36,763 bases of DNA, taken from IMG/VR virus record IMGVR_UViG_3300019730_000002, positions 1-36,763 of that record, one strand, 5' to 3'. Each line of letters opens with the position of its first letter. Position 1 is the stretch's first letter. The notes beneath the pieces were generated by a model. The model was not told the origin of the DNA, ran no database searches, and worked only from the letters and a program-made list of their open reading frames with translations. The translations under genes were made by a program, and so were the position numbers. The DNA is from a virus. Of this stretch, positions 1,314-32,182 are shown piece by piece.

Positions 1314-1318
1314 ATATA

Positions 1319-1341: not shown

Positions 1342-1350
1342 GTTGTTTTG

Positions 1351-1518
1351 TTATTTAAGATTATTTGCTCTTTCTATACTTTCTGAATCTCAAGCTTTTT
1401 CATACCAATATATAGCTTTTTCTATATCTTTATCACGATTCATTCAAAATTCGTATTCATAAGCTAATCAAATCATTCATTCTTTTATTCACATTCTTGC
1501 CATTTGTTCGTTATCCAT
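1351..1518 (-). CDS. Single Sel1-like repeat protein, 55 aa
   Basis: The central segment GLAYEYEFGMNRDKDIEKA followed by IYWYEKAGD matches the Sel1-like (TPR-related) repeat, in which a helical hairpin carries small residues and a KA-x-x-WYEKA end. Sel1 repeats mediate protein-protein contacts; here there is only one. Four ATG codons lie near the 5' end; the outermost (1518) is used. Several glycines are TGA. Partner unknown. Confidence 0.7.
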
Positions 1519-1545
1519 AATAATATATATTTAATAAATTAAAAC

Positions 1546-1743
1546 TTATTGCTGACACGCATAGTGTATGTCATGTAATCAGTGGTCTATTGATTCTAGT
1601 TTCTCCATTACTGCCTGATGTTCTTGTGATGGGGTGCAAGTATCTATTTTCTTTGAAAGCACAAAAAACAATAAAGTAAGTCAAAACATTGATAATATAA
1701 TAATAATTCATGATAATATACCGTCTTGTGTTTTTTGTTTCAT
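1546..1743 (-). CDS. Small single-pass membrane protein, 65 aa
   Basis: A strongly hydrophobic segment at about residues 9-30 (GIIIILSMFGLTLLFFVLSK) follows a short polar N-terminus. The C-terminal half is polar, with two cysteines and several histidines. It could be a lysis accessory or early membrane protein, as it sits directly downstream of the membrane-anchored muramidase (1759-2400). No family recognised. Confidence 0.65.
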
Positions 1744-1758
1744 TATCTTATATTGTGG

Positions 1759-2400
1759 TTAGGGAGTTAAAATAGTAAATCTATTTCTTACATAGCTACT
1801 ACACTTCTGTCATTTTATTACTCTATCAGGTCAATAAAATCTTGTACCTCCTAATCTTTTAGTGTAACAATAATCTACTTGATACTTTCGATCTTGATAA
1901 TACTCATTAGGTATATCGTGAAATCTTTTATTCATTTGACATAATCAATAAGCATCTCAACCATCTCATACATTTAGAGGATTCATTCAGCTTTCACATT
2001 CCATAAGTATAAGCAAATCCATACCTCATTTCTTATAAGCATAGTTTACTAACTCCTGTCTATAATCGCCACTAGCAAATCATTTATGTATAACTACTGT
2101 ATCTTTGGACATCATTTGTACAGATTTCTCTCCCAAACTATCTGACCTGCTAGAAGTTCAAGTTGTTTGTTTAATCACTCTGTTTTGATTTTCTCTAACG
2201 GTTGTTCCTGTGTTTCAAGAGATATTTTCTCCTGTCTTAGTTTTATTAGTTCAAGATCATACTTGAATTGTTCCTGATATGTAGATATTTCCACTTTCAA
2301 CTTGTGGTTGTTTGAGGAGGTAATAAAAAGACATAAACAAACAAATACCAATAAATAATATAACCAATACTTCTTCAAATGTTCTTTTATCATGTTTCAT
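1759..2400 (-). CDS. Membrane-anchored SLT/lysozyme-like muramidase, 213 aa
   Basis: The N-terminus (MKHDKRTFEEVLVILFIGIC...) contains one hydrophobic segment at about residues 10-29, a signal anchor. A low-complexity Gly/Thr/Asn linker spans about residues 38-85. The C-terminal domain carries the lysozyme-superfamily signature: MECESGMNP, with probable catalytic Glu136, then GDAYGLCQMNKRFH, matching the 'ESG.NP ... GA.GLMQ' pattern of soluble lytic transglycosylases (PF01464). It should cleave the glycan strand of peptidoglycan from the membrane side. Its place in the early/replication operon, far from the holin, is unusual. An overlapping frame (2094-2393) also starts with a membrane-like segment but lacks the enzyme motifs. 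The start is the first ATG in frame that precedes the hydrophobic segment. Confidence 0.78.
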
Positions 2401-2438
2401 AAATAAATAATAAGAATAAATCAACAAATAACGCTTAT

Positions 2439-2705
2439 TTAACCAATCAAAATATAACCAATAACTACACCAAGAGATAATAATCAAATAAGACCTAGTA
2501 GAGCTAACTTCCAATGTAAATTTCTAATCTCTGGTGCTTCTACTTCTATTAGTACATTTAGTTTTTTTCTTAGATTATAAAACTTTACTTTCTTGATATG
2601 ACATTTCTTACAAGTTCATCTATATCAATCTTTACATTGTTTGTGTGGGTAATAGTTATCTATTGATAGATTTTTCTTACAAGCTCTGCATTTTTTATAA
2701 TACAT
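2439..2705 (-). CDS. Zinc-ribbon protein with C-terminal membrane segment, 88 aa
   Basis: The N-terminal half has CRACKKN ... CKDGYRGTCKKCH, the two-knuckle zinc ribbon with a 'DG....CK.C' core seen in many phage and HNH-associated proteins. The C-terminus is a hydrophobic helix (about residues 66-88, LALLGLIGLLSLGVVIGYIL), so the protein is probably tail-anchored in the membrane with its zinc ribbon in the cytoplasm. Role unknown. It sits upstream of the membrane muramidase. Confidence 0.68.
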
Positions 2706-2731
2706 TTTTGTTTTAGATAAACGGATAAAAC

Positions 2732-2953
2732 TTATTTAATCTTTCTAAGTCTTTCTACTTCTTTTATCTTCTCTGATACATATAAATCAAATCATATACA
2801 TATCCTTTCTCTTACACTATTAGTTGGTTCATGTCATTTTAGGATCTTATATACCATATCCCTAGATATATTACAGAAATATGATATCTGTTCCTTTGTT
2901 AATTTCTTCTCCATCTCTTTTATATATTTCTTATATGAGTTTTTGCTTAACAT
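2732..2953 (-). CDS. Small helix-turn-helix DNA-binding protein, 73 aa
   Basis: The segment LTKEQISYFCNISRDMVYKI followed by LKGHEPTNSVRERI has the spacing of a Cro/C1-type or XRE-like helix-turn-helix. A basic N-terminus and helical C-terminus surround it. A transcriptional regulator of phage genes is likely, but no operator could be assigned. It ends 27 bases before the zinc-ribbon/TM gene. Confidence 0.62.
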
Positions 2954-2960
2954 CTTGTTT

Positions 2961-3254
2961 TTAATTTAAAGATAAATCTATATTTTCATTATATTCTTTT
3001 GTGTCTGTTATTCTCTCATATACATCTACCATACCCCTATATCTAGCTAATTCTATTTCAATAGATTTTGAGTGTATTTCTAATTGGTTATAATCATTAT
3101 TTCTTCTTATTGTTCTATCATTTTTTTCTTTTTCTTCTTTCCACAATTCATAATAATAATTTTTACTGTTTTCTAATTCAATTTTTTCTTTTCTAAGTTG
3201 TTTATTTTCTTTTTTATAGTCTTTCATATCTTGTTTTCTAAAAAGGTAAATCAT
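2961..3254 (-). CDS. Coiled-coil protein, 97 aa
   Basis: Family not recognised. Residues about 10-65 are almost all Lys, Glu, Asn, Arg and Tyr with heptad-like spacing (ENKQLRKEKIELENSK), predicting a coiled coil. An internal ATG (codon 10) is an alternative start. This gene contains no TGA. It follows the 3238-3723 gene with a 17-base overlap. Confidence 0.65.
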   Translation of the reverse strand: MIYLFRKQDMKDYKKENKQLRKEKIELENSKNYYYELWKEEKEKNDRTIRRNNDYNQLEIHSKSIEIELARYRGMVDVYERITDTKEYNENIDLSLN

Positions 3255-3723
3255 TGTTTATTGCTTTCTCTACTTTAACTGTTTCTCTATCAACAAATTT
3301 AATTGAGTTAATCCATTCATAATAACTTTTTATTATAGGATCAAGGTATGCTATTATTCATTGTGCTTCCTCTATATCTTTTAGATAATCTGTTTCTCAT
3401 TCTTGTGGATTTAGCATCTCTAAATTAACCATATTTTCTATCTCAACATTTGTTATTCTGTTTTTTTTTGCTTTTGGGTTAGTTTTTAGTTCTTCTTTGT
3501 ATTCATCATTATATTTTTTCTCTAGATATTGAGAACAATTTTCTTTTTTATATATAAACAATCTCTCATATCCTGCTTTAGATGAAACAAGATTTCTTTT
3601 ATTCTCTCATAACTTAACAGATAATCAAATAAGTTCCTTTAATAATTCAGGTAATTTTGTTCTGTTACTATCTTTCTCAATATCATTGATTAAAAAATCA
3701 ATTTTTTTAAGTAGTTTTTCCAT
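3238..3723 (-). CDS. Hypothetical helical protein, 161 aa
   Basis: I do not recognise a family. The sequence is predominantly helical and charged, with a central segment NPQEGETDYLKDIEEAQGII and one cysteine. It lies directly downstream of the ssDNA-binding candidate and upstream of the coiled-coil gene, so a role in replication or recombination (for example an annealing or nuclease-accessory factor) is a guess from position only. The ATG at 3723 is the first in frame and lies four bases from the stop of the upstream gene. Confidence 0.68.
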
Positions 3724-3726
3724 AGT

Positions 3727-4125
3727 TTATTTGGTTACTATTTCTAAAGCGTTAATAGTTTCTAACATCCAATTAAATATACTTGTAGCTGATGATTTAA
3801 TATCTTTAACATCTACTTTACCAGCAACAACAAGATCTTTTGAATATGCCATAGCCATACTAACAGCTTGTATTCTAGGATTAACAGGAGTATATCAACC
3901 TTTTTTAAATTCCTCTCTAATCTCTTTGATCTTCTTTACTCCATATTGATCTGTTTCTTTTACTTCATACTTAATTTCATCTCACACCTTAAAGTAATTG
4001 TCAGTCTTTTTACCAATACTTACTTTATCACCATTCTCCATCTCCATAGAGTGATAAAACACATCTCAATTAGTTGATTTCCATACATTTGTTCCTGTAA
4101 TTGATTTTACTTTACTAACTACCAT
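3727..4125 (-). CDS. Probable OB-fold single-stranded DNA-binding protein, 132 aa
   Basis: The N-terminal 60 residues follow the pattern W-K-S-T-N-G-D-V-F-Y-H, ENGDKVSIGKK, FKVGDEIKYEV. This alternating beta-strand layout, with a central 'NGD...G.K......VGDE..Y', is seen in small phage ssDNA-binding proteins. The C-terminal part (NPRIQAVSMAMAYSKDLV ... IFNWMLE) resembles the helical region found after the OB fold in many of these. It would coat ssDNA during replication or recombination. This is a family-style judgement from sequence pattern, not a strong motif. Its neighbours include a NinG-like recombination protein and, further upstream, the helicase. Confidence 0.5.
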
Positions 4126-4148
4126 TTGTATATAATAATATTATAAAA

Positions 4149-4292
4149 CTAATTTAATTTCTCTCCTAATATTCATAAACTAATCTCACTAATAGTTACT
4201 TTTCATTCTTCAACCCATTTGATAACTTCATTTGGATTTAGTTTTGCTTTCTTTGCATACATTGTAACTAACTTCTTTTGTGCTGATGTCAT
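4149..4292 (-). CDS. Hypothetical small protein, 47 aa
   Basis: The protein (MTSAQKKLVTMYAKKAKLNP...) is helical, with an HTH-like segment NPNEVIKWVEEGKVTISEI, but too short to assign. It ends 24 bases before the ssDNA-binding candidate. Three glycines are TGA or GGN. Confidence 0.55.
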
Positions 4293-4445
4293 TTGTGAAT
4301 AGATAATAATATAAAGACTTATTGATAGCAAGACTCACTAATCCTAATTTGTTTCGTTTATTGTCTCCCTATGTATGTTTGAATTATAATGTTTTTTTCT
4401 TAAATTGCAAGACATTTTTGTACTTTTTTGTCTTTTGCTGTTCTA

Positions 4446-4874
4446 TTACTTTATACCTAGCCTTTCTCTCTGTATCTTGTTTAATTCTTTATATTTTTCT
4501 AACATTTCTTCTAATTCTGGTGTTCTAATTTTATAAACTTTTTTTGATAAATCTCTCATTTCATTAACTTTATCTAATCAAAATTTCTCGATCTGTTTTA
4601 TTGTATATTCTCTTATATGAAATTCAGGACGGTATGTATTACATCAAGCACATCAAGGAGCAAGGTTATCTAAATCGAATCTATATCTTAAACATCATCT
4701 TGAGATCCGATGACAGCAATGAGCTTTCTTAAACGGTATTCTAACTCAACAAGATATACAAGTGATAAATCATTTACTATCAGCATTAGACATACGAACA
4801 TATTTAGATATCTCTGAATCTAATAGTTTTATTATCTTACTTCTAGTTCTTTTCTTTGATTTCATCTCTAACAT
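4446..4874 (-). CDS. NinG-like HNH/zinc-finger recombination protein, 142 aa
   Basis: The order of features matches lambda NinG/Rap (PF05766): a basic helical N-terminus ending in LDSEISKYVRM, then TCISCGVRIPFKKAHCCHRI, then RCLRYRFDLDNLAPGCAGCN, then a helical segment with FGLDKVNEM. In lambda, NinG acts on branched intermediates in recombination, using an HNH-type fold. The two CxxC pairs and the histidines are present; lambda's 'GHF' is replaced here by CCHRI. The same frame opens further upstream (ATG 4946), but that extension reads as hydrophobic noise overlapping the 4843-5052 gene, so ATG 4874 is preferred; ATG 4865 is also possible. Confidence 0.75.
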
Positions 4875-5052
4875 TTTGTAAAGTAGTAAAATCTTTCCTC
4901 CAAGATCTATTATAAATTTTATCACATTCAAATATAAATTCAGCATCACTTAATAATCAGTTTATATGTCTTTCTACTATATCTTGGTACTTCTTATTTA
5001 TTCTACTTATATTATAATAGCGACTTATTTTCTGGGCGTTTGTTTCTTTCAT
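4843..5052 (-). CDS. Hypothetical protein, 69 aa
   Basis: Family not recognised. The protein is basic and helical (KISRYYNISRINKKYQDIVE), with a single cysteine and a W near the C-terminus. It overlaps the start of the NinG-like gene by 32 bases, a coupling common in this operon. Only one TGA (read as Gly in HINGLL). Confidence 0.62.
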
Positions 5053-5298
5053 CTATTTTCATAACATAGATAAAACAGTATCAAATCATTCAAGATCATT
5101 AACCTTTCATTTTAACCATTCAATCATTTCATCTACACTATAATCTCATCAATCCTCTATCATCTCTAGCTCAAATATTAAATGTTCTATTGTTGATTCA
5201 TACACATACCTTTCTTCTTCATACATTTTAGCGTTCTCTTCTAACCTTTCTTTATGGTTTTTTATCATTTCTTCTCTTTGTTTTTTAGTTAGTTTCAT
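5053..5298 (-). CDS. Hypothetical acidic helical protein, 81 aa
   Basis: The protein has a lysine-rich start followed by a glutamate-rich helix (EERYVYESTIEHLIFELEMI) and an acidic end. No catalytic motif is seen. It ends exactly where the next gene's ATG begins (stop 5053-5055, ATG 5050-5052), a coupled arrangement. TGA codons are read as glycine, including the GG pair of EDGGDYSV. Confidence 0.62.
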
Positions 5299-5309
5299 CT
5301 TTATGGTTA

Positions 5310-5501
5310 TTATTGGTTAAAAAAATCATTTAACACACGTTCTATATCTTTAATGGAATAATATCTATCTATAACAATTTGTTTTCATCTTTCAACTTTA
5401 CTGGACGAACAGAACTGGCATTTCTCTATGATATTTTTCATTATAATGGTTTCTAATCAGACTTTTTTTCTTTTTCTTCTAGTTTTAGTTTCTTTATTCA
5501 T
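5310..5501 (-). CDS. Small basic protein with CxxC and excisionase-like helix, 63 aa
   Basis: The N-terminus is highly basic (NKETKTRRKRKK). A CQFC pair lies near residue 28. The C-terminal half, IVIDRYYSIKDIERVLNDFF, resembles the winged-helix start of MerR/excisionase-type proteins. DNA binding is therefore likely but not proven. It overlaps the next upstream gene by 8 bases. Confidence 0.55.
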
Positions 5502-5697
5502 TTGGTGTAGGGGTAGAAGATAAAATGTTATATTCTTCTTTAGTTATAAATTTTAATCTTCAATTCTTTTTATCCCATATAGCTCTTTTTCATGCTTTTT
5601 TTACTCTTTTATCAAAAAATTTTACTAATCATTTAAGTTCTTTATCACTTATTTTATTTACATCTAGTAAATATGTATCAGGTTTTAAACAATCCAT
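5494..5697 (-). CDS. Hypothetical protein, 67 aa
   Basis: Family not recognised. Its core DKELKGLVKFFDKRVKKAGK followed by RAIWDKKNGRLKFITKEEY looks like a compact alpha/beta fold; it ends in a serine/threonine/proline tail. It lies in the run of six small genes downstream of the helicase. Confidence 0.6.
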
Positions 5698-5702
5698 AAT
5701 CT

Positions 5703-5900
5703 CTATTGGTTATTAGATAAATATTTCTCTGCTTTTTTATAATCTATATCTTTTGGTTTTCTTTCTAGTTCTACACAATCTCTAAATCTATATATATTTG
5801 TATCAGCTAATCTATAATAGCTTCACATTCTCATATTATAATCTTTCTTTAATATCTTTATAGCTTCTTCTAAAGAATTAGCTCTTATATCTATATCCAT
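5703..5900 (-). CDS. Hypothetical protein, 65 aa
   Basis: The protein (MDIDIRANSLEEAIKILKKD ...) is alpha/beta, with 'A.S.EEAIKI' typical of small modules that bind or scaffold. The second half is basic and acidic mixed. No family assigned. Spacing to the neighbours is 5-9 bases on either side. Confidence 0.6.
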
Positions 5901-5909
5901 TAGTATGTA

Positions 5910-6089
5910 TTAATTAATTAAAATTCATCTCATATATGATTTTATTTCATTATAAGATTGTTCGTCATACAAAAGTGTTTTCTTATCACCATTTTTAAAA
6001 TATAAAACAATTTTATAATCTTCATCATTAAAAATCATTTTGAATACATAATCCAGATTTATAGTTGTTTTTAAGTATCTTATTCGCAT
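5910..6089 (-). CDS. Hypothetical protein, 59 aa
   Basis: The predicted fold is beta-rich (KTTINLDYVFKMIFNDEDYK, then KIVLYFKNGDKKTLLYDE). No motif allows a functional call. It follows the helicase gene with a 17-base gap. Confidence 0.58.
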
Positions 6090-6106
6090 CTTTTATAAAT
6101 TATAAA

Positions 6107-7321
6107 TTAAAAGGCTTTATCAAACATTCTAAAGGAACTAAGTTTTAATCATAATGGTATATCTGCTTCCATTCAGTTTCTATTCTTCCTTACAAGGATA
6201 TCTAATATTCATTTTCTCTCTGTTTCTTTATCATAATACTCTTCTCTATATAACATCAACACCATATCAGCATCTTGTTCTATACTACCACTATCTCTTA
6301 GATCAGATAGTATTGGTCTTTTATCTGGTCTTTTCTCTACTTCTCTTGATAGTTGGCTTCATAATACAATCTCTACATTATATTTTAATGCTATAAGTTT
6401 AAGTTGTCTTGTTATCTCTGATATTTTATCGATAGTTCTCATATTACTAGATCAATGATTTATTAAACCTAAATAATCTACATAACATACATCTAGTTTG
6501 TTCTTAACCACAAACTGTTCTATTTTGTTTATAGTATATATCTTATCAGATAAAAATAACTTCTTTTCTAATAATTTCTCTAGATACTCCATTATCTTTG
6601 CTATATGATCTGATTTCTTTTCTAATTGATATGAAGTTAATCAAGATAATATACAAACTATTCTATCAATAATATCACCTACTTTCATCTCCATAGAAGC
6701 AAATCAAACATTATATTTTGTGGATTCTCTTAACGCTTTATTTAACATTACAGTAGTTTTTCACATTCAAGGTCTACCAGCAACAACTACTAATTGTCAT
6801 CAAGCAAATTTACAATATTCATCTATACTATCAAATCAACAAACCAACTTCTTTTGTTCTTTATCTATATCCATAAAATAATCTTTTGTTTGTTTCTCTA
6901 GTGTTTCTTCTTCATCAAACTCATCTATCATATCAGTAATCTTTTCTAGCGTTGTCTTAGCTTTATCTATATCTAATCATCTTGTTTCTCATTCTAATCT
7001 TTGTATTCATCTTATGATGGTTCTAGCATTCTTATATTTAATAAGCTCCTTACAAATATATTCAATAGATGATTCTGATACAAATTCTCATAGTATTTCA
7101 AATATATAATCGGCAGCCAATAAACTATCTAAAGCTAATACAGAAACATCTTGTGATTTAGTTTTCTTTATAGATTCAAATAAAATTCTATAACTATCAA
7201 CATAAAAACAATTTTTATCTAGCTTATCTATTGTATAATTAAAATTATAAACCATAGCTATTCATAGTTTCTCTAATTCTATATCGTGAGGTGGTAATAA
7301 AACATCTTCTAATTTTGTCAT
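6107..7321 (-). CDS. dnaB: DnaB-type replicative helicase, 404 aa
   Basis: A hexameric 5'-3' DNA helicase that should unwind the replication fork ahead of host polymerase. The Walker A motif is AGRPGMGKTT (G182-T190 region), with Gly185 and Gly187 both encoded by TGA; translation stops here in the standard code and the loop is destroyed if TGA were tryptophan. Walker B follows as [12 protein letters not shown]. The RecA-fold DnaB signatures [12 protein letters not shown] and [17 protein letters not shown] are intact, then the C-terminal KNRNG. The N-terminal domain (about residues 1-100) is shorter than in bacterial DnaB, as is usual for phage versions. The start overlaps the end of the initiator gene by 13 bases, so the two are translationally coupled. 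Confidence 0.95.
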
Positions 7322-7923
7322 AATTCTTTATCTAATGAAGTAAAGAAATCATCTGTATCTGGAACTTTGATAGGTTCTTTATGTTCTTTCTTTTTGATTC
7401 AATCTTTATTTAACCAACTAAGTATAGTAAAATAATGAGATTTATATTTAGCTCATTTACTTCAAATATAATCATTTAAATTATTCATATATTTATTTAT
7501 AATATTATCTCAATAATTATATATTAGTTTATTATATTCTTCTATAGTTAAATATATATAATCTAAATATAATATCTTATCTATATCTATTCTATTCTTG
7601 TCTATTCTATTCTTGTCTATAGGTTTTTTAGGTTTTGTAGCTTTCGTAGGTTTTTTAGGTTTTTGTGAGTTATTCCAATCTTTCTTTGGTCTTCATCACT
7701 TAATTCAGTTGTTTTTTCTACTCTCACAAAACAAATTATATGCTTCTATATCGTTATCAAAAAATGGTTTAAAGAATCAAAATACAATTTCTAATCTTTT
7801 ATCTAATTTACATTCCAATCATAAATTATATCTATAAATATAATCAAATAAAATACCCTTATCTTCGTTAGATAAATTTTCTATTCAATTATATAATTCT
7901 CACGGAATAAATATCTTTCTCAT
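7309..7923 (-). CDS. Replisome-organizer-like replication initiator / helicase loader, 204 aa
   Basis: The N-terminal domain (about residues 1-75) has the pattern FIPGELYNGIENLSNEDKG ... FFKPFFDN, as in phage proteins that open with a DUF6291-like domain. It is followed by GIKGGRPKK and a Lys-Pro-rich linker. The C-terminal part LTIEEYNKLIYNYGD ... NNLNDYIGSKGAKYKSHYFT ... LSWLNKD is the module shared by many phage replisome organizers and DnaD-like loaders. It probably binds the origin and loads the DnaB-type helicase encoded immediately downstream. The linker includes a perfect 15-bp tandem duplication (7591-7620). An unusual structured leader precedes the ATG by about 20 bases. Confidence 0.78.
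7591..7620. repeat. 15-bp perfect tandem repeat inside the initiator gene
   Basis: TCTATTCTTGTCTAT occurs twice head to tail (7591-7605, 7606-7620) and encodes two copies of R-I-D-K-N. Just beyond it, 7621-7664 holds three imperfect AGGTTTTTTAGGTTTT-like units encoding the Lys-Pro linker. Repeats within an initiator gene are where several phages keep their replication origin, so these could be iterons; protein-level linker expansion is the alternative. Confidence 0.6.
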
Positions 7924-7944
7924 AATAAAATTTTTATAAAACAA

Positions 7945-8024
7945 AAACTGGGCAGCTCCGCCAAGAGTCGAACCCAGTTTAAGTTTGGCGGAACTTTTAA
8001 TCGACTCGGGGTATTTATCTTGGC
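7945..8024 (-). promoter_or_regulatory. Structured leader with three interleaved stems upstream of the initiator gene
   Basis: Three complementary pairs are arranged A-B-C-A'-B'-C': AAACTGGG (7945-7952) with CCCAGTTT (7973-7980); TCCGCCAA (7957-7964) with TTGGCGGA (7985-7992); GAGTCGA (7965-7971) with TCGACTC (8001-8007). A fourth competing pairing joins GCCAAGA (7960-7966) to TCTTGGC (8018-8024). All stems are perfect and GC-rich in an otherwise very A+T-rich genome. The pairs cross each other, so they must form pseudoknots or exclude one another. The region is non-coding and lies about 20 bases before ATG 7923 on the transcribed strand, so a translational or transcriptional control element for replication is the natural reading. 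It contains a TTCGA segment like a T loop but does not fold as a tRNA. Confidence 0.65.
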
Positions 8025-8060
8025 TATAGTAAACAAATAAATCTAAAAATCAAGTCAAAA

Positions 8061-8213
8061 TTAAAACAAACTAACAACAAATAAGATAACAATAAATAAT
8101 AGCCATCATAATCAATACAATATACCTAAAGCTAATGCAGTATATAAAGTATTTTCAAATCAGAAAACAATAACAGCAATAATAATAAGTAGTACAGGTA
8201 TAGAAATATACAT
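8061..8213 (-). CDS. Very small hydrophobic membrane protein, 50 aa
   Basis: The protein is almost entirely hydrophobic: one segment at residues 3-18 (ISIPVLLIIIAVIVFG) and another at about 27-48 (LALGILYGLGWLLFIVILFV), so it probably crosses the membrane twice. Function unknown. Confidence 0.58.
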
Positions 8214-8229
8214 AGTAGTAATAGTTTAA

Positions 8230-8427
8230 TTATAAAACATCTTCAAAATGAGCGGATTCTAACTCATCAATAAATTCTTTCATATTATCGTTAAAATTTC
8301 TTTTAGTAAATCTTTTAACTTCTTGACCAGATAATAGTTTATTTTGGTTATAAGTAGATAATCATAAATATCTCTCTATCCACTCTTTACTAATTCATTT
8401 ATTTAGTAGTAGTTTAAGTTGTTCCAT
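8230..8427 (-). CDS. Small helix-turn-helix-like protein, 65 aa
   Basis: The segment GISKEWIERYLGLSTYNQNK followed by LLSGQEV looks like a helix-turn-helix recognition unit; the C-terminus is acidic. It may regulate the divergent early/late promoters. Family not assigned. Confidence 0.55.
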
Positions 8428-10635: not shown

Positions 10636-10707
10636 AATCCTAAAAATAAGAACACAATACTTACCTAGAGTTTAATCGGCTTTAACTGTATGAGGAGTAT
10701 AAAAAAT

Positions 10708-12216
10708 ATGGCAGATAAAAAACCACTATTACTTTCCAGAGAATGGAGATTAAATCATCTATATAAAATAGTAGACAAAGAATGAGCTACTGTAACTTTT
10801 AAATTGAATCCCTGACAGAGGATTCTTTTTGATAAAGAGAACGAACTAAGAAAATCTAAGTGAAGAGTTTGGTTAAAGATATTGAAAGCTAGACAGATAT
10901 GATTTACTACATACAAATTAATAGATAAATTAGATAAAGCTATATTCTATTCTAATACCAACGTAAATATAGTAGCTCATAATAGAGAGAAATTACAAGA
11001 GATATTTAAGAAAGTTAAGTTTACGTTTGAGAATATTCCAGACCAAATAAAACTAAGTGATTGAAGAATATGGAAGAAACCTATCCCAAAATATGATAAC
11101 ACAAACGAATACTATTTTCCTGACAAAAATAGTACGATAAAGATTACATTAGATTCAAGATCATGAACACTAACAGATTGTCATATAAGTGAATGAGCGT
11201 TCATAGAAAAATTTAGAGATATGTTAAGAGCAACATTACCATCAGCAGAGCAAGCAGATATAACGATAGAAACAACAGCTAATGGTATGAATGAATTTAA
11301 AGAGTTCCGAGATAACGATGATAGATTCGAGGAGGTATTCTTTCCTTGGTTTGTTGACCCTAGTTATAGAAAGACAGCTCCGAAGTGATGGAAATGTATG
11401 GAAGAATTGGCTTATATTCAGGATAAATATTGATTAGACAACGATCAAATGTATTGGTATGAGGAAAAGTACAGAAACGATAAAGATTGAACGTTACAAG
11501 AATATCCATCAGAACCTATTGATGCTTTTATAAGTTCAGGAAGACCGTTCTATGATTTACATAAAATAAAAGAATATCCTATAAAGAAATGAATAGAAGA
11601 TGATTTCCATAAATGACTTATACGATATAATAAAACTAAAAGCAAAAATTATATCTATTGATTAGATTTTTCTGAGTGATTAGATCATGGAGATTACTCT
11701 ACTATAAGAGTAAGAGATAGAGATTTAAAATTGATAGCAACTTATAGATGAAAACAAGACCCCGCAGATATGACAAACATAGTTAATTACTTATGGGAAA
11801 ATTGAATAGAGTGAGTTATAGCTCCAGAGAGCAACAATCATTGACACACGTTTATTCACGCAGCTAAGAGTTATAAATGGTACGATAACATCTATATTCC
11901 AAGGACAGATAAAGAGGATAGAAATAATATACAATTAGGTAGAAGATGACGACAAACAAATCTAAAGACTAGACCACTAATGTTAGACGAACATAAAGAT
12001 ATGATAAAAAACTGATTACTAGAGATGGATAAAGAGTTACAAGATGAATGTTATACATTTGTATTAAAGAATGGTAAACCACAAGCAGATGATAATTGTT
12101 TTGATGATGTTGTTATGTGAGATGCTATATGTTGTCAGATGTTGAAAGAGGAAGTACATAACGAATATTTATGAGATACTGTAGATGTTGATGTTTGAGA
12201 GTTTTTGTTATGATAA
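10708..12216 (+). CDS. terL: Terminase large subunit (ATPase-nuclease), 502 aa
   Basis: This is the packaging motor. The N-terminal ATPase has an adenine-binding LNPGQRILFDKE, Walker A LKARQIGFTT with Gly65 encoded by TGA 10900-10902, a Walker B region TDCHISEGAF (S161-E162) and the coupling motif TTANG near residue 190. The C-terminal RNase H-like nuclease has D320 in YGLDFSEGLDHGDY, E374 in APESNNHGHT and D466/D467 in FDDVVMGDA, the canonical acidic triad. About 24 glycines are TGA and many sit at conserved positions, so glycine is required, not tryptophan. GAGGAG precedes the ATG by a few bases, one of the few Shine-Dalgarno-like sites here. Confidence 0.96.
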
Positions 12217-12279: not shown

Positions 12280-14199
12280 ATGGAGGGATTGTTACACCAA
12301 GTAAGAGAAGAATTTTCTGTATGAGATAACTATATGCAGAACAAAAGAGTACAGATATTAGATAGATTAAAGAAACATATCAAACAGAACAAACAACCTT
12401 GATTGGTTAATATAAATATGGTTTCAAACACTATCGATACATTGATAGCATGAAGTTATATAGATGAACCACAAGTAAAGTTTATATCAAGAGATATGTT
12501 CTTAGAGAACGAACAAGCAGATAATCTTAATTTCATGTTTAAGTTTGATGGGAAAGAGATGGATTATCAACAAATAGACTATCAAGTACAATGGGATAGA
12601 TATTTTTTTGGTTTAGGGATAAAATATAAACATTGATTTGATCTAACAAAGAAAGCACCTATCTTTTATGCTGTTAATCCTATGACAGCTATATTTGATC
12701 CAACGCCTACATTGATAGGTAAATTCTCAGCCAACCAATACAAATACTTCTGATTCACAATGACAGCTAGTATATTTGAGATGAAGAATGATCCACAATA
12801 TAATAAAGCTGAGTTATCTAAACTAACTAAACAAAGTATAGATAAAGATCAGGATTTAATGAAACAAGCTATAAGTATAAGCGATAATACCAATCGAGTA
12901 TGTGATAGTTTAGCATTAAACTTTAGTGTAGATATATATCATCACTGTACTATAAGAAATGGTAAAAAATATATAGTAACAACAGATGCCGCAACAAAGA
13001 CATTAGAATTAAGAGTAATAGAAATACCTGCAGTATTACAAGAAGAAAAGAAAGATGCTAGTTTAATACCACGACCATTCTCGTTCTATTTCTATAAACC
13101 AGAGAGATGAAAGGTATTATGAGTATCTGTTACTGATCTATTAGATGATAAGGAAGAAGCTAAGACAGTATTATTTAATGCTAGTCTTATTAAAGCAAGA
13201 TTAGAAGCGTTTGGTGGTAAATTTATAGTAAATAGTAGATTGATTAAGAATAAAGAAGATATATTAAAGCCAAGTACATGACCTAAATATATATTCACTA
13301 ACGATAAACTACAACCATGAGAATCGTTATCTAATGTTATGTCAGAGATACCAACAAGTAATATCAAACAAGATGTTATGACTATGAGTAATATGTTAGA
13401 GCGTGAATGAACAATGGATACAAAACAAGATCAAATGCAAATGGGTATTGTTCCAGATAAAGCTATGACAAAAGCAGAACAACAATCAGTACAAAGTAAC
13501 GCTAATATGTTAAGTTCATTGAATATGAAAACATACTTACGAGGTGAATATGATTTTGCATTCTTACGATGGAGAACATATCAAGAGTATTTTTCTAAGA
13601 GTGATGAGAAATTTGTATTAATGACACAAGATTTCGAATGGAAATCTATAAGTATAAAGAAAGATGATTTCAATACTAAGAACAATCCGTTTATAATAAC
13701 TGGTAGTAAATCAGATATAGAAGCTATAACAGAGAAGCAAAAACAGTTCTGGAGAATGAGTTTACCAATAATAATCAATGATCCAGATGTACCAAAGATA
13801 AGTAAACTGATAGCTAAAAGGTTTAGTGCTAAGTTAGAATGAATGCCACAGAATGTAATAAACCAAATATATGGATTACTACCTGCTGAGAGAAAAGCTA
13901 AAGAGATGGTTGAATACTTTTTGAACGAAGATAAAGTACCAAAGACGTTATTCAAAGATCCTAACTTAGATTACAATATCTTATGGATATACTTCCAGAA
14001 AGCTGAAGATACTGATGCTACTAATAAAGTATTAACAGCATTAGAACAGTATCTAATAGATCAATGAGAAGCACCACAACAAATGACAATGAATGAACAA
14101 GCTAATACAGCAAGTAATATAATGATGGCACAAGCTAACCAATGAATGTGAAATGAAGTAGTTAGTAAACAAAGTGTTTTAGAACCTAATATGTGATAA
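12280..14199 (+). CDS. Portal protein, 639 aa
   Basis: The dodecameric ring through which DNA enters and leaves the capsid. The identification rests on length, position directly between large terminase and scaffold/capsid, and overall layout: helical N-terminus (QNKRVQILDRLKKHIKQNKQ), a mixed alpha/beta wing, the long helical region around DLLDDKEEAKTVLFNASL, and a Gln/Asn/Met-rich C-terminal tail. It resembles the larger portals of podovirus-type phages. One uninterrupted frame runs for 640 codons with about 18 TGA codons. The stop TAA overlaps the next ATG (TAATG). Confidence 0.82.
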
Positions 14200-14507: not shown

Positions 14508-14600
14508 TGGTATGATTAACCTCATATATTGCTACAGCGGATGATGCTTAATGCCGCCTTTGCGAGTAGTAAACGCTTTAACTTACTAACCAATTACACA

Positions 14601-15161
14601 ATGGCAGAAGATGTTATTGAAAACGAAAATCTAGAGAATGAAAATCTAGAAAACGAAGAGTCTGGAGATGAAACAGACTACAGAAGCCTTTATGAACAAG
14701 AAAAGGCTGAAAGGGAAGAAGCTTTAGAATCCGTTAAGAAATGGAAAGAAAGGGCTAAGACCAATTACAAGAAAGTAAATGAGAAAAAATCTGACAGTTG
14801 AATTGACCAAGACACTGTAAAGAGAATGGTTGATGAAAGTGTTGGTGTTGTTAAATTCTATTCAGAGAACAAGGACGCAAATCAGTATCAATCTGATATT
14901 GAAGAGCTAGTTGCTAAAGGGATAGAAAGAGACAAAGCATTTAGATATGTAATTGCAGAAAAAGACCCTAGTCTATTACTTGATGATGCTAAAAAAGCTC
15001 AGCTTAATGGTAATACTGCATTAACATGAGTGCCTTCTAATCCTGATATTGTAAAGAATCCTAATCAGATGAGTGATGAAGAATTAGCTGAACTATCAGA
15101 TGAAGAATTTGATAAGTTATTTCCAACCACACAGAACGATAAGAAGTTCTTTGCACAATAG
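14601..15161 (+). CDS. Probable scaffolding protein, 186 aa
   Basis: It should shape the procapsid and leave before packaging. The sequence is strongly acidic with an N-terminal ENLENENLENEESG repeat, then a coiled coil (EKAEREEALESVKKWKERAK), then an alpha-helical C-terminus. This composition, the length and the position immediately before the capsid gene are typical of scaffolds, although no specific family is matched. Two TGA codons are read as glycine. An open frame extends upstream to 14529, but ATG 14601, preceded by ACACA, is the better start. Confidence 0.72.
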
Positions 15162-15190: not shown

Positions 15191-16393
15191 ATGGCAAACT
15201 CTTTATCAAACTTTAAAAAACAAATTTGGGATCGTAGAATCCAAAGAGACCTAAATAAATCACTAGTAGCTTTGCCACTAGCAAGATTTGGGTTTTCTGA
15301 AGTAACTGGTGCTACAAGATTTAATAGACCAGCGAAAACAAGACTTTATTCAGTAAGTTATACTGCTGAAACTGCTATGAGTACACAAGCTCTTGGTTCA
15401 TCTAACGAATACTTGGATGTAGATCAAACAAAAGCAGTACATTTCTTTATCGATGATACACAAAAATTAGAATCAAACTACGACATTATGTCTATGTATG
15501 CTCCTGAAGCTGTGTATGCGTTGAGAAATGAAATGGATGGAAAATTCTTAGCTCAAGTATCTAACGCTTTCTACACAGTAGGAAAATTAGATATAGAGGG
15601 AAGTGGAGCAAATACTACTGGTATTACTGTTACTACTTCTAATGTAGTTAAGATGCTTTCTTTCTCTAAAGCTAAATTAGTACAAAACAGAGTAGAAACT
15701 ACTACACCTTTCTTCGTAGTATTAGAACCAACTATTGCTGCTATCTGGGAACAAACTCTTACAGGTACAGGAAACAACTTGGCTGATACAACTCTAAGAA
15801 ATGGTTATATGGCTTCTATTGGTGCATTAGGATTGGATGTTTATGTGTCTAACAACCTAAAACATACAAGAACTCTTACTGGTACTGGTAACTTCTCAGC
15901 TAATGATACTGTAATTATCGGATCACAAACATTCAAATTCGTTGCATCACCTGCTGCTGTTGGAGATGTTGATTTGGGTGCTGATCTTGAAACTTCATTA
16001 GCTAATCTTGCTGCTGCTATCAATGATAGTGGAACAGCTGGAACAACTTATATCCAACTTACTCAAGATGAAAGAGCTAAATTGAAACAAAATCTAGTTT
16101 CTGCTACTTCTACAGCTACTACTCTAGTAGTAACTACTGCTGGATACACTGACATTACTGAAGGTGTTGATGGAGGTACAACTTTCTCTATGGGAGATCA
16201 TAATTGTTCTTCTATACTTGGACAAAAAGGATGTATTGATATGGTTATCCAAAAATCAGTTGTATCTGAAATGCAAAGAGGTACTTCTAAAGGACTTATC
16301 GGTGAATACGTTACAACTTGGACAAGATATGGAATTAAAACATTTACTGAAGGTGCTCAAAGAATGGTTGAAATCCTTATTAAAATGTTATAG
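15191..16393 (+). CDS. Major capsid protein, 400 aa
   Basis: This forms the icosahedral shell. The N-terminal 200 residues (LARFGFSEVTG, then NRPAKTRLYSVSYTAET, then an E-loop/spine-like region) and the C-terminal domain are compatible with an HK97-type fold. Residues about 225-315 (from TRTLTGTGNFSANDTV to LVVTTAG) look like an inserted beta-sandwich of the 'tGT..aNDTVtIG..tf.F' kind often found in phage capsid and tail proteins. Unlike every other long gene here it contains no TGA: all of its roughly 32 glycines use GGN codons, and it favours CTT, ACT and GCT. It is followed by a hairpin terminator. Confidence 0.88.
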   Translation: MANSLSNFKKQIWDRRIQRDLNKSLVALPLARFGFSEVTGATRFNRPAKTRLYSVSYTAETAMSTQALGSSNEYLDVDQTKAVHFFIDDTQKLESNYDIMSMYAPEAVYALRNEMDGKFLAQVSNAFYTVGKLDIEGSGANTTGITVTTSNVVKMLSFSKAKLVQNRVETTTPFFVVLEPTIAAIWEQTLTGTGNNLADTTLRNGYMASIGALGLDVYVSNNLKHTRTLTGTGNFSANDTVIIGSQTFKFVASPAAVGDVDLGADLETSLANLAAAINDSGTAGTTYIQLTQDERAKLKQNLVSATSTATTLVVTTAGYTDITEGVDGGTTFSMGDHNCSSILGQKGCIDMVIQKSVVSEMQRGTSKGLIGEYVTTWTRYGIKTFTEGAQRMVEILIKML

Positions 16394-16467: not shown

Positions 16468-17151
16468 ATGGATGTATCAAATATAATTACTAAAAGTAGA
16501 GTACAAACAAATACTAGTGCAGGACAAAAGTCTGATGCACTAATATTACAAGACCTTAATATTATATATAAGGAGGTTTTTTCTCGTTTAGCAACAAAAA
16601 GTAAAAAATATACACGACAATCATATTATGCTGCTACAGAAGAAAACCAGCATGAATATTCTATACCTAAACCATCAGTAACAGAGACAGGTATAAAGAG
16701 AGTATTAAATGTTCACGTAAAATACAGTTCTGATTGAAATCATATTCCTTGTAAGATGTATGATACATCAACAGGTGTAGATAATGACTATGAGAACGAA
16801 AACATCCCTTATTGTATTGTAAGAGATGGTAGTATCTTTGTTTATCCAGCTCCAACAGAAGTAATATCTGATTGAATAGTAGTAGAATGACAATACATTC
16901 CATTAGATCTAGAAACCACAACAACAAGTGATAATATAAAACTAGATTCAGAGTATCATGATATACTATTGAGTGGGTTAAATATGTATAACTTTGCTGA
17001 TAAACAGTTATTTGATAAGAAAGCTATAGCAAAACAAGAATTTGAGGAATGAATAGCTAGGATGATATTAGAATGATGAGCTGATCCCGAAAGTGCTTAT
17101 GAAACAACAGAAACTGATATATATAACCAATCTTTAGAACTTTTACCTTAA
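16468..17151 (+). CDS. Head-tail connector / adaptor protein, 227 aa
   Basis: It should sit beneath the portal ring. The N-terminal helices, a central beta region (YSIPKPSVTETGIKRVLNVH, then IVRDGSIFVYPAP) and the C-terminal LDSEYHDILLSGLNMYNFAD with a following helix form the pattern common to podovirus and siphovirus adaptor proteins, including the conserved 'yHd.L..g' element. About seven TGA codons occur. Its place after the capsid gene supports the call. Confidence 0.68.
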
Positions 17152-17155
17152 TAAT

Positions 17156-19186
17156 ATGGCAGAAAATACAACCAAAAATCCAATATACAATGACTTTACG
17201 GGCTGAGTAGGTTCGGATAAGTATTTGTCGTTGAAGTGAGGTTGTTATGATGGTGAGTGATTGGACATATCTAATGGTAAGAGAGTTATATTAGCGACAC
17301 ACAACCAAAACAATGTAGTACAATTCCCTAATAGTTCAAAGATAACAACAATGTGAGATATATATACTAGTAATAACTGATATATATATGATAGTTCAGC
17401 AACAACATTATATGAATTTGAGTGATGAGACTCTTATTGAAATCTAAGAAACTACACAACATTTAATATATTAGGAACAGAATATACATTAGTATTCTGA
17501 GTGGGTTATATATCAAGATACGCTTGATCTAGTGTTTACACAACATTAACACCATCATACACATCAACAGGATGGACATCTGCTGGTAGTGTTTACACAC
17601 ATACAACTGGTAATACTAACGCCTTTACTAGTTCTGCTGCGGCAGTAATATGAAATAGATATAGAATATATATAGAAGTAACATGAGTAACAGCATGATC
17701 GTTAGAAGTTGATATTGGTGATTCATGAGATCCAAAGACAATAACTGCTGATGGAACTTATACATATTTCCTTACAGCAACTAATACTGATGCTTTAACA
17801 TTAACACCAACAACAGATTTTGATTGAAGTATAGATATAGATTGAATGTATTCTCTTTGTAATGTAGAAGAGTGATATTTAGAGTTAGATAATTTAGCCC
17901 AAGCATGTCCTATATTAGAGGATACTGGTGATTTATATATAGGTAATGGTAACGCGTTATTATGATTAGGTGTTGATTGAGTATTAAAGACTTATTTCAC
18001 ACTATCAGATAACACAGAAATAATATGAATAACTAAAGTTGCTGATCAATTTGTTATATGGACTAGAGATTGACAATGAAGTAGAGTACATCGATGGGAT
18101 TGAGTATCATCAACTCCAGAGAACACAATATATTGGTATAATGAGATTATACAAAATGTAGTAAACCAATGAAACTACCATATAGTTATGACAGGTGGTG
18201 ATTTTGGTATAAAGAAAATATGGAAAAGTAATGGTAATGCTAAAACAATGTTATATCAAATAAGAGAATGAGATCGACAAAGTGCAATATGATCTAATAC
18301 ATTAGTACCACCAATACCATTATATTGGTGATGAAGTGCTACAAACTATTATGTTAATAATGTAGAATCATTATGAGATATGGTATTTATGCCATGATAT
18401 AATAAGATAATAACATACTGACATAGAACACCATGATTTCCTGATGCTTTGTTCCCTACGTTTGCATTAAAACAGACAGCTATATATTCTATGTATGCAA
18501 GTGAATGAGCTTTATATGTAGCCTATGATAATTGATCTTGATGTAGTGTAATAGAATGGCATCTAGATAACTATGAATCTATGCAGGATTCATCAACAGA
18601 TTATTATTTTGGTAGTAGATGATATATGACATTGAACCCTATAATGTATCTATGACAACAATTAAAGGATGGTATTAAATGGAGATTATGAATTAGAACA
18701 CCAGAGAATACGTTTATGAATCTATATTATGCGATAGATAGAGAGGTTGATAGATATACGTTTGTTGTTGATGAGACAATAAATGCTGTAACAACAGATC
18801 CTGTAGTATGAGATATATATACAATATGATCAACACCAAGATTTGAGGTTGTACAAGTAAAGAAGTTCTTAAACTATATGTTTATAGAATGTAAAGAGAC
18901 AACAAGATATAGAACACCTAGAGTATGATCTACACTAACAAAGATAAGTTGAACAGGTGATGCTACAATAACATACGTAGATTTCCATAACTATAGATAC
19001 TTTGATACAATAACAGATACAACAGAGATAAGAAAAAGACAATGGATAAGGAAATTTGATACAGATATATGAGAAAACTCGTTTACAGAGATCCAACCGA
19101 GAATAGAGTTAATTACTAGAGATGGTAAATATACTCCAGAGTATAATGATATAGGTTTATATTTTGACGACTTACCAGATGGATAA
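17156..19186 (+). CDS. Large tail hub/nozzle-like structural protein, 676 aa
   Basis: A virion protein dense in TGA glycines. Residues about 125-240 form a jelly-roll carbohydrate-binding-like insertion (TGWTSAGSVYTHTTGNTNAF ... RYRIYIEVTGV ... DFDGSIDIDGM). The remainder has repeating beta segments such as SRVHRWDGVS, DQFVIWTRDG and EGALYVAYDNGSG, compatible with a beta-propeller, the fold at the core of the P22 gp10 and T7 gp12 tail nozzles. Position after the adaptor fits a tail hub. The fold is inferred from strand pattern, and a siphovirus-type tail protein cannot be excluded. Confidence 0.6.
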
Positions 19187-26673: not shown

Positions 26674-27747
26674 ATGACAGCAACAGCAGATTTACCTAAT
26701 AAAAATATTAAAGACTTTACTGAGAAGTTAAGTTTTGCTGCAGGAGATAAATGATTTATCATTGATAGTGAAGATGGTGATAAACTAAAACTTATCCCTA
26801 AAACACTTATGAAATGAGATCAATGAGATCCATGAGATAATGGTGCTGACTGAGTATCTTTTGTTCCTAAGTGAGCTTATGATTCTGGTACTGAATACAT
26901 AGCCAATGATGTTGTATCTTACTTAGGTTCTACTTGGATAGCGTTACAAACAACTACTGGTAATACACCTAGTGAATGAGTTTACTGGACACTTAATGCT
27001 GCTAAGGGTACAGATGGTACTGGTAGTGGTGATATGATGGCTAGTATGTATGATCCAACAAGTGTTGAGTGAGATGCTTTTGATATGGATAATATGGCAC
27101 AGGGAACCACTAATAAGTATGTTAGTGCTGCAGAAAAAACAGTAATAGAAAATACAAGTTGAACTAATACAGGTGATGAGGTAGTAGCAACATGAGCAGA
27201 GGTGGATACTGGTACTAATGATACTAAAATGGTTACACCTAAGGCTATGGAAGATAGCTCTTATATGAAAAACCCAATGACAGCATCATGAGATGTTATA
27301 TATGGTTGAGCTAGTGGTGTTCCTACTAGGTTAGCTAAAGGTACTGATGACCAAGTATTAACATTGGCTAGTTGAGTTCCAACTTGGGCTGATGCTACTG
27401 GTGGTAGTTGAGGTGGTAGTGATTTATTTGCTATAGCTTGAACTATATGAGCTACTGGTACTAACGTAGCAAACACTATTTTAATTAACGCTACAAAGAC
27501 TATAAGTTCAGTAGATATGTGGTTTGGTACAGCTGGTAACGGAACAACAACAATAGATGTAAATAAAAATGGTACAACAATATTCTCTGCCAATCCATCG
27601 ATAACAACAACAGATCAATATACAATAGATTGAGGTACATTATCTACAACAAGTTTAGCTAGTGGAGATTTATTAACATTAGATATAGATGCTGTAGCAG
27701 CAACAACTGCTGGTGTAGATTTGTATGTAAGAGTTAATTATGCTTAG
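26674..27747 (+). CDS. Tail fibre/receptor-binding protein with collagen-like run and carbohydrate-binding module, 357 aa
   Basis: A short N-terminal beta domain is followed by a collagen-like Gly-X-Y stretch (GDQGDPGDNGADG, residues 48-60) in which four of five glycines are TGA at exact 9-base spacing (26815, 26824, 26833, 26851; GGT at 26842). Next is a chitin-binding-like module, GAYDSGTEYIANDVVSYLGS ... LQTTTGNTPSEGVYW, the 'W..gt.Y..GD.V.y.G..y' pattern of CBM5/12 proteins. A trimeric stalk-like region and a C-terminal beta-sandwich follow. It is a likely adsorption protein binding the host surface or the host's own prey/partner cell. Confidence 0.75.
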
Positions 27748-28493: not shown

Positions 28494-29303
28494 ATGGCAC
28501 AATACATAATCCCAGTTACATTTGCAGATGATACAGGTTTTGTTGCTTGATTATCACCTACAATAACCATAAGACAACGAGACGATAGAGAGCTTGTGTA
28601 TTCTGATATTGTTTCAGAAACTATGGAGGATAAATGACTGGGAGATTATGTATATATATTCTATGATTATGATAAGTCTAAACTATATAACCGAAAAATA
28701 GATGGTGGTAGTGATGAATTAACATCTAGATTCTCTTTTGGTAATAACGAACTAGATTATTATTCAAACAAAGAGGATTATGGTATCCAAGTAAGAGGTG
28801 CTATAGGTTGATACGCTAACCATATAACAAAAAGGTTTGAGAAATTAGAGGAGATATTAGAATTACTTAAACCAGAGAAAGTTGATTTAAGCGATATACT
28901 TGAATATTTAGAAAAAATAGATAAAAAAGAGATAACAATAAATAACGATGAAATAATATCTAAGATATACGAATTAGAGGACAAATTTGATTCAAAAAAA
29001 GATAAAATGGATATTATATCGGCTATGAAAAACAACGAAGCTAATTTAATCAAATTAAACGATGATAACAGGGAAATAATCAATAAATTATTAGAACAAC
29101 AGAAAGAAGACAGAGAGATTATACAAGATTTAAAAAAATATATAGAAAAACTAATAAGAAGATGAGATATAGAAAAAGATAGTGATTTTAGGAAACTAGT
29201 TAAGGAGATAAAGGAAAGTGAAAACAATATAAAAGAGCTGTCTATATATATGGATCAAGATTTTATTTCTTTAACTAGTTCTTTATGAGTGTTGGATGAT
29301 TAA
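28494..29303 (+). CDS. Baseplate/fibre attachment protein with long coiled coil, 269 aa
   Basis: The N-terminal 100 residues form beta strands with FADDTGFVAGLSPTITIRQR, DRELVYSDIVSE and GLGDYVYIFYDYD, similar to the N-terminal domains of upper-baseplate proteins that bind a fibre. Residues about 108-250 are a continuous charged coiled coil. The stop overlaps the start of the tail-fibre gene (19 bases), so the two are co-translated and probably assemble together. Confidence 0.6.
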
Positions 29304-32182
29304 AAAGAATTGGTAGTCCACTAAATTTTCTAAAACTAGACCAAACAACACCACAAACTGTTGAAAATGGTTTTCCTAAGTTTTGATATTGAATAGAATT
29401 AGATACGACATATACACCAACTGGAGCAGAAACAGCATGACAGATTTTTTGGGATGAAGATAACCAAACAATAACATGAATGTTAAAGAACGGTGTTGGT
29501 TATCAATTTGGTAATGAGTTATATACTGACGTACAAAATGATACATGAGAGACTATAACAAATGGTACTCCTGTTATGTTTGCTGAAGGTATTGGTAATA
29601 GTTGAAATCTTAGAATACAAAAAGCAATAGCTGATAATAGTATTCCAGTTTGATATATATTATGATTAGCTACACAAGATATAGCCGATTGAGATAGGTG
29701 ATTAGTTACTTGGCGAGGTAAAGTAAGATGAATAGATACAACAGGTACTCCATATTGAGAAACTTGGAACGAATGAGATTTGATATTTGTTTCAGCAACG
29801 ACTGCTTGATATTTAACCAATGTTCCACCAGAAGCACCAAACGCTGCAATATTTATATGAGCAGTAATTAATGTACACGCTACAGTTGGTACTATAGATG
29901 TATGAACTAGCTTCCCATCAAAACTAACAGAATTATCTGATGTAAACTGAACAGCATTAACAACCAATGGGCAAACTCTATACTGGGATCAGGATAGAGG
30001 TGTGTTTGATTTTACTACAGATATAGTAGTAGACCAAACAACTGGTAGAGTAGGTATAGGAACAGCTACTCCAAGCTATAAGTTTGAGGTACAAAGTGAT
30101 GATACAACTGTTTGATTTTTTCAATGAGCAACTAATGCTTATATGTATATAAAAGCAGGCACAGCAACTAGCGACCAATGAATATTTCTAAGTAATAGTA
30201 ATGGTTTAAATTGGTTGTTTTGACATGATAAAAGTGAGAATAGGTTTAGATTCTACTCTTACAATACCAGTTTAGATATGTTTGAGATAAGTTCTATAAC
30301 TGGAAATACATCTGTGTTACAATGAGATTTCTTGGTGCCTAATGGTAATGTAGGTATATGAACAACTAGCCCTGATACAAAATTACATACTTATGGTACT
30401 AATAACACAATAAGGTTTAGTTATAATGATACAAATTATGGGGAGATTTATTCTAAAGCTAATTGAGGTATAACACTTAATCCTATGGCATCTGGGAACA
30501 CAGCTTATGTAGACATATTACAAACACATACTCTTTATGGTTTTTTAATGCATAGAGGTGCTGTTTGGTGTGGTCAAGGGCTTTCAGTTGATGGGAATTT
30601 TGGTCTATCTACTTCAGACACTACAAAGGACACCATATTTTATGGGGGTAATTTCCAGGTGTCTACTGAAATTATGAGATTAAAAGGGACTGGTAATGTA
30701 GGTATATGAACAACTAGTCCATGAGGTAAATTACACGCAATAAGTGACACATTCCCAGTATGATTCTTTGAAAGAGAGACTACTGTTACTGGTTGAGATC
30801 TAAGCACTATATCATGACTAGCTAGTTGAATGTTACTAAAAACAACTACATCATGAGATATGACAGATTGATTTGGGTGATGATTCATATTTGGTGCTGC
30901 AGATGATACAGCTACATGAGATAATAATTATTTAGCTAGAATCTATGCTAGAAGAGATTGATGAGATGCAATATGAGCTTTACAGTTCTGGATAGGTAGC
31001 ACAGGTTCTACGTTAGGTATGACATTAAGATCTAGTGGTAATGTAGGTATATGAACATCTAGTCCACAATCAATATTAAATATAAATTGATGAGCAGGAG
31101 GCTTAGGAAGCTTAGCAACTTGATTAACATTTGGAGATGGTGATACAGGAATATATGAGGCTTTAGATGATAGATTAGCGATAGATCCAGTAAACAGGCT
31201 ACTTATTAGAACAAATGGTATAGATTATTGGACGTTTGCAGGTAATACGTTATATCCATCATGAGGTATAGGTGCTAGAATAACAGCCATAGAACCATCC
31301 TCAACTGTTCCTACAATAATACCTAGAAACATAGATACAAATTCTGGGCTGGGTTCAACAGCTGATGACGCTATATCACTAATCGCTGGAGGGGTAGAAG
31401 GAATAAGAATAACAGAAACAGCAGGAGTTATTCAAAATAATTTAGCTGGCTCTGTTTATATAGGAGATACAATAACTACTCCTTCGGAAAATTTAGAAGT
31501 AGCTGGTAACTTATTCCTTAATACAGATAGTAATAAAATATATTTATGAGCTTGAAAAGATGTCTGAATATATTATGATTGAACTGACGCTATTATAGAT
31601 ACATGATTAGTTGCTCCTAGTGATTTAATAATAGATTGTGGGATAGAAAAGACACTAGAATTAGAGGAATGAGTATATATGGATGAAAACTTTGACCCTA
31701 TTATAGGTAGATGAGCTAATGCTCCAGATTTGATAAATCTAAATAGCACTAGTATAAAGATAGCTGCATTTAATGGTGCTGCAACATTAGAGGAAGTATC
31801 ATCTCATAAAGAACTTAATCATAACTATCAAGAATGAACAGACCTTAGTTTCCATATACACCGAGCTCCTACAACTACTGGTACTGGTAATGTAAAATGG
31901 TTTCTTGAGTATTACATAACAGATGGTAATTGACCTACAGTTAAGGCTACAGGAACAATAACAGTCACTTCTGCAGCTAGTGGTACTGCTTGGGATACAA
32001 CTATTGGATCATTTTGAACGATAACATGAACATCATTCACTATATGAGATCAAGTATCTTTAAGGTTATATAGAGATCCAACAGACGCTGAAGATACGTA
32101 TTGAGCAGATGCTGTAGTAAAAACATTTGGTTATCACTACAAAGTTGATACAATGGGATCAAGACAACTAACATCAAAATAA
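29285..32182 (+). CDS. Tail fibre/spike protein with GIGT repeats, 965 aa
   Basis: A beta-rich N-terminus is followed by at least four copies of a 'GNVGIGTTSP' repeat (30047, 30344, 30692, 31037), typical of beta-helical phage fibres. In copy 1 the glycine after isoleucine is GGA; in copies 2-4 the same codon is TGA, an internal proof of the code. The C-terminal 130 residues (HIHRAPTTTGTGNVKWFLEY ... DTMGSRQLTSK) match the terminal domain of many phage fibres that ends in 'dt.GSr....K'. A trimeric host-recognition fibre is expected. Confidence 0.8.
30041..31066 (+). repeat. GNVGIGT fibre repeats (four copies)
   Basis: The DNA unit GGTAATGTAGGTATATGAACA and close variants begin near 30044, 30344, 30692 and 31037, about 300-350 bp apart. 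They encode G-(N/R)-V-G-I-G-T-(T/S/A)-(S/T)-P, with diverged spacer sequence between them. Confidence 0.85.

Follow-up and report, generated by a model that had tools for sequence, protein, structure and literature searches.

Scarcity of the reassigned glycine codon TGA in the major capsid genes of code-25 phages, probably through translational selection

The stretch of DNA that we analyzed, here called the window, is a virus record of 36,763 bases. It begins and ends with an exact 123-base direct terminal repeat (1-123 and 36641-36763), from which we judge that the record is probably a complete genome; a methyltransferase-like gene spans the two ends. The features that matter for what follows are:

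327-8427, minus strand: leftward module with a DnaB-like helicase; ~74% TGA among its glycine codons (95 TGA and 34 GGN, including the cut methylase gene at 1-321)
10690-12216, plus strand: terminase large subunit (TerL), a contrast gene; 24 TGA and 5 GGN
12280-14199, plus strand: portal, a contrast gene; 15 TGA and 12 GGN
14529-15161, plus strand: scaffold-like gene directly before the capsid gene, its function taken from position alone; 2 TGA and 4 GGN (52% TGA in its family)
15191-16393, plus strand: major capsid protein gene, assigned from PHROG 267 and predicted fold; 0 TGA and 32 GGN
16468-17151, plus strand: head-tail adaptor (PF24175, SU10_adaptor), a contrast gene; 6 TGA and 5 GGN
17156-19186, plus strand: tail-region gene, a contrast gene; 43 TGA and 26 GGN

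The open reading frame at 15191-16393 runs from ATG to TAG and encodes 400 amino acids. It matched the PHROG 267 profile for a major head protein (E 7.9e-14), and its structure was predicted to have an HK97-type fold (model pLDDT 82), with the capsid of cyanophage A4 as the top match in the PDB (9jwb, E 3.6e-13). Taking this predicted fold together with the profile match and the gene order, we assign the product as the major capsid protein. A PHROG search with the scaffold-like gene returned no match. The sole tRNA gene that ARAGORN found in the window was a tRNA-Tyr(GTA) (1230-1314, minus strand), and no phage-borne tRNA decoding a reassigned stop was found there. No obvious GGAGG-like Shine-Dalgarno motif was seen within 25 bases upstream of any of eight late genes (10690, 12280, 15191, 16468, 17156, 20278, 23115 and 29285).

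The use of TGA as a glycine codon in this phage (genetic code 25) finds support when TerL is aligned with its standard-code homologues, in which glycine was the residue most often found opposite TGA (112 of 256 aligned positions), followed by alanine (33). From the phage's code alone, we infer a host among the Gracilibacteria or Absconditabacteria.

A first-pass annotation of the window had described the capsid gene as having some 32 glycines, all GGN, and no TGA codon, and its neighbors as rich in TGA, with about 24 in the terminase. Our counts agree: the capsid gene has 32 GGN codons (17 GGA, 14 GGT and 1 GGG) and no TGA, and the flanking genes have the TGA counts given above. All other called genes of the window together contain 476 TGA and 303 GGN codons (61% TGA), a rate at which drawing no TGA among 32 glycines has a binomial probability of 7.5e-14. 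Allowing for the spread between genes, by fitting a beta-binomial to the remaining genes of the window, raised this probability to 1.7e-5. A few other window genes also lack TGA, but they are short or glycine-poor (0/3, 0/4) and carry little weight. The shift toward CTT, ACT and GCT that the same annotation had reported is likewise present (0.32, 0.62 and 0.78 in the capsid gene versus 0.11, 0.31 and 0.56 in the other genes), as is a strong avoidance of ATA (2 of 21 in the capsid gene versus 492 of 691 elsewhere, P 1e-8). Two long, repetitive, glycine-rich late genes (26674-27747 and 29285-32182) have 38% and 43% TGA, below most other long genes.

We collected relatives by scans with the capsid, terminase and portal. 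About a dozen capsid-bearing contigs with at most 5% TGA outside the capsid look like standard-code phages and the remainder look like code-25 phages. We took a set of 49 code-25 contigs (including the window), most of them fragments. In these we called open reading frames mechanically, used BLAST to sort the proteins into families and added up the glycine codons of each family. Among the 36 code-25 contigs with a capsid gene, the capsid family used TGA for 104 of 927 glycines (11%), compared with 43–92% in each of the other families listed (minimum 4 contigs and 20 glycines), including the portal (53%), scaffold-like (52%) and adaptor (59%) families. The capsid had a lower TGA fraction than the rest of its own contig in all 36 cases. 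The 36 capsids form 11 clusters at 80% identity, one of which holds 25 of them, and the capsid was also lower in all 11 clusters. Low TGA in the capsid is therefore not peculiar to the window phage, whose zero lies at the low end of its family (P 0.022 for none of 32 at the pooled capsid rate). At the other end, some capsids keep much TGA: 10 of 28 glycines in contig L002 and 19 of 52 in L151/L153. Separately, four contigs of the code-25 set (L155, L156, L132 and L052) have 18–33% TGA among all their glycine codons, compared with the usual 45–75%.

A capsid gene without any TGA, with a codon profile unlike that of the neighboring genes, might have been acquired recently from a standard-code phage and have yet to accumulate TGA, as the first-pass annotation had also considered. 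The capsid tree indicated otherwise. The nearest capsids, those of L001, L002 and L007, are 61–75% identical to that of the window and form a clade with it at 100/100 support, and all three lie in code-25 contigs; the tree does not resolve how code-25 and standard-code capsids branch at greater depth. Moreover, the capsid gene of L002 contains ten TGA codons, all ten of which align with GGN glycines of the window capsid, and low capsid TGA is common to all 36 contigs. We therefore reject recent acquisition, which we regard as very improbable. The pattern has been inherited among code-25 phages and maintained by synonymous replacement.

The depletion is also seen with an unrelated capsid. Contig L192 (identical with L053 and L194), which also uses code 25, encodes a capsid of a different type (PF17236, SU10_MCP) and carries a tape measure gene. 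Its capsid gene uses TGA for 11 of 31 glycines (P 7e-6) and a putative tail-tube gene for 5 of 23 (P 2e-7), compared with ~76% in the rest of the contig. The latter gene lies one gene away from the tape measure gene, which is the usual place of a tail-tube gene, and is assigned by this position only; a profile search with it gave no match. Two scans for relatives of L192 returned only L192 itself and one short fragment. The 11 of 11 clusters and the unrelated L192 show that the depletion recurs in independent lineages.

If the depletion reflected a regional mutation bias, or a constraint on the trinucleotide TGA in DNA or RNA, it should extend beyond the reading frame. In-frame TGA fell to 8.0 per 1000 codons in capsids from 41.3 elsewhere, whereas TGA in the two other frames was not reduced overall (12.6 versus 16.9 in one and 50.2 versus 41.3 in the other), such that capsids have about the usual out-of-frame TGA and the avoidance is specific to the codon. 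Although G+C content is slightly higher near the capsid gene (0.34–0.35 versus 0.29 for the genome), GC3 outside glycine is not raised in capsids (0.191 versus 0.229), and the scaffold-like and adaptor families, which flank the capsid, are rich in TGA. The frame-specific pattern contradicts this explanation, to which we accord a negligible probability.

The loss of TGA is accompanied by a codon shift that touches nearly all amino acids rather than glycine alone. In code-25 capsids, ATA, AGG, CGA, CAT, AGT and most G-ending codons are used less, and ATC, TTC, CAC, AAC, GAC, GCT, TCT, ACT and GAA are used more; going from the other genes to the capsid family, for example, ATA changes from 0.57 to 0.13, TTC from 0.35 to 0.56, CAC from 0.28 to 0.69, TCT from 0.24 to 0.50 and GCT from 0.47 to 0.69. 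Among common codons, TGA has the greatest log-odds shift (-2.45), followed by ATA (-2.20). The capsids of ten standard-code relatives likewise avoid ATA and favor TTC. Within contigs, non-capsid genes with more capsid-like codon usage (glycine excluded) also have lower TGA fractions (rho -0.27, n 313, P 1.3e-6), with only a weak direct correlation between TGA and ATA in these genes. Because the drop in TGA comes with shifts in nearly all amino acids, we regard it as one part of codon optimization of the capsid gene. The main substitute glycine codon in code-25 capsids is GGA (0.66). Since a single base separates GGA from TGA, either ease of mutation or tRNA preference could equally account for this choice. 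In the standard-code relatives (L008, L022, L031, L044, L046, L050 and others), the preferred capsid glycine codon is mostly GGT.

We considered whether the history of UGA as a stop codon might matter more than its decoding rate. Residual termination at UGA, or the insertion of a wrong residue such as tryptophan, could produce truncated or faulty subunits that poison capsid assembly; TGA does show the biggest shift of the common codons, and BD1-5 proteomics contained one peptide with tryptophan at a UGA codon (PMC4032931). A cause in decoding fidelity would make TGA rarest at conserved glycines, but TGA made up 17% of glycine codons at the most conserved capsid columns (partly owing to one column) and 5–11% elsewhere, and thus a fidelity cause is unsupported. 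Premature termination would lower TGA toward the 3' ends of genes, but TGA was no rarer there, and in capsids it was scarcest in the first two fifths, which leaves a termination cause unsupported as well. ATA and other codons that have no link to release factors shift almost as strongly as TGA, and prfB is reported to be absent from BD1-5 genomes (PMC6851277), which also speaks against the residual release factor 2 that the earlier annotation had suggested. Overall, we consider an origin in the stop-codon past of UGA improbable.

Another suggestion of that annotation was that the capsid must be translatable under the standard code, either in a second host or before recoding becomes active. Some predicted phages of these hosts do lack any in-frame TGA (PMC10746230). 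However, the terminase, portal, adaptor and tail genes of the window phage are rich in TGA, and a TGA-free capsid alone would be of no help; in addition, relatives retain some TGA in their capsid genes, and the only tRNA that the window phage was found to carry is the tRNA-Tyr. We give this possibility very little credence.

Because TGA is neither rarest at conserved glycines nor declining toward the 3' end, and because prfB is reportedly absent, decoding efficiency under high expression is favored. In our view, the low TGA of the capsid gene very probably results from translational selection of the ordinary kind, acting on a protein made in great abundance, and the reassigned UGA would be the most disfavored of the common codons. 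The capsid product would be required in hundreds of copies per virion, which would place the gene under strong translational selection; expression level, as judged from the role of the capsid, would be the driver. UGA, behaving as a disfavored glycine codon in code-25 phages, would be replaced mostly by GGA (through one T-to-G change) or GGT, along with the replacement of ATA, AGG, CAT and most G-ending codons. Its decoding by tRNA-Gly(UCA) may be slower, or this tRNA scarcer, than the decoding of GGA and GGT by ordinary glycine tRNAs; a limited supply of tRNA-Gly(UCA) is a likely putative cause, compatible with our results. Of the causes first proposed for the TGA-free capsid, the tie to a highly made protein is thus the one that stood, supported by the 36 of 36 contigs, the unrelated L192 and the codon optimization in almost every amino acid, whereas release factor 2, translation outside the recoded state and recent import did not. 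Counting against translational selection are the scaffold-like family, whose product is presumably abundant too and which at 52% TGA shows no depletion, the considerable TGA kept by the capsids of L002 and L151/L153, and the weak correlation between TGA and ATA.

A stronger version, in which UGA-Gly decoding in code-25 cells is slow or limiting beyond ordinary preference, such that expression is tuned by UGA content and individual UGAs serve as programmed pauses, seems to us unlikely. One alignment column bears on it. At column 212, a conserved glycine (residue ~187-198) is encoded by TGA, in the context GAY UGA UUY, in 22 of the 24 capsids of the main code-25 clade (for example, L012:5935-7089), whereas away from this column TGA makes up 9% of the glycine codons of the same 24 capsids, and most codons near it vary synonymously. 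In the window capsid the corresponding residue is Gly194, encoded by GGA. The TGA at column 212 could be either an inherited site or a selected pause.

We also searched for the host. A related portal was found on a single genome contig, L157 (CAIOXR010000054.1), which is a TGA-using phage contig. The EF-Tu-like and SecA frames of the genome bin that holds it have no in-frame stops, and we therefore rejected this bin as a code-25 host; L157 is probably a stray phage contig mis-binned with a standard-code genome. We also screened genomes drawn from the class and phylum of the bin with EF-Tu, gyrB, SecA, L2 and a tRNA-Gly(UCA) pattern that may have been too strict; among the matches listed, none came from a clear code-25 genome.

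Our results suggest that a reassigned stop can be the commonest codon for its amino acid genome-wide and yet be treated as inferior in the genes whose output counts most. Translation quality is thereby separated from mutation pressure, through which low-GC genomes can become filled with UGA. A simple prediction follows for highly expressed genes in the uncultured code-25 hosts, and the codon profile of the capsid may serve as a proxy for host-preferred codons where the host is uncultured. We found no earlier report of the code-25 capsid pattern in the literature searched, which is no proof of its absence.

Phage head and tail genes were previously found to favor host-preferred codons (Lucks et al., 2008; PMC2266997). 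In those phages, as in the ones studied here, head genes make more use of preferred codons than the remaining genes do, but those phages use the standard code, infect known hosts (E. coli, P. aeruginosa and L. lactis) and have no reassigned codon. In Blastocrithidia, highly expressed genes avoid reassigned codons (PMC12153298), and there too a reassigned stop is treated as a translational burden and depleted where expression is high. That case concerns a eukaryote whose nuclear genome has different reassignments and for which protein abundances are available, whereas in code-25 phages UGA encodes glycine and, apart from the capsid gene, accounts for most glycine codons, with abundance judged from the role of the protein. 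Code-15 crAss-like phages also have a reassigned stop codon inside their genes (PMC9523058), but they carry suppressor tRNAs and have recoded stops in structural genes, perhaps delaying them; the window phage yielded no such tRNA, and its capsid gene is purged of the reassigned codon. A further comparison is with code-25 phages of Gracilibacteria and Absconditabacteria, whose genes are likewise dense with in-frame TGA read as glycine, a density that was suggested to perhaps make translation more efficient (PMC10746230). The capsid goes unmentioned in that work, and the capsid pattern described here, in the gene that should depend most on efficient translation, opposes the suggestion, arguing against dense TGA as a form of codon optimization.
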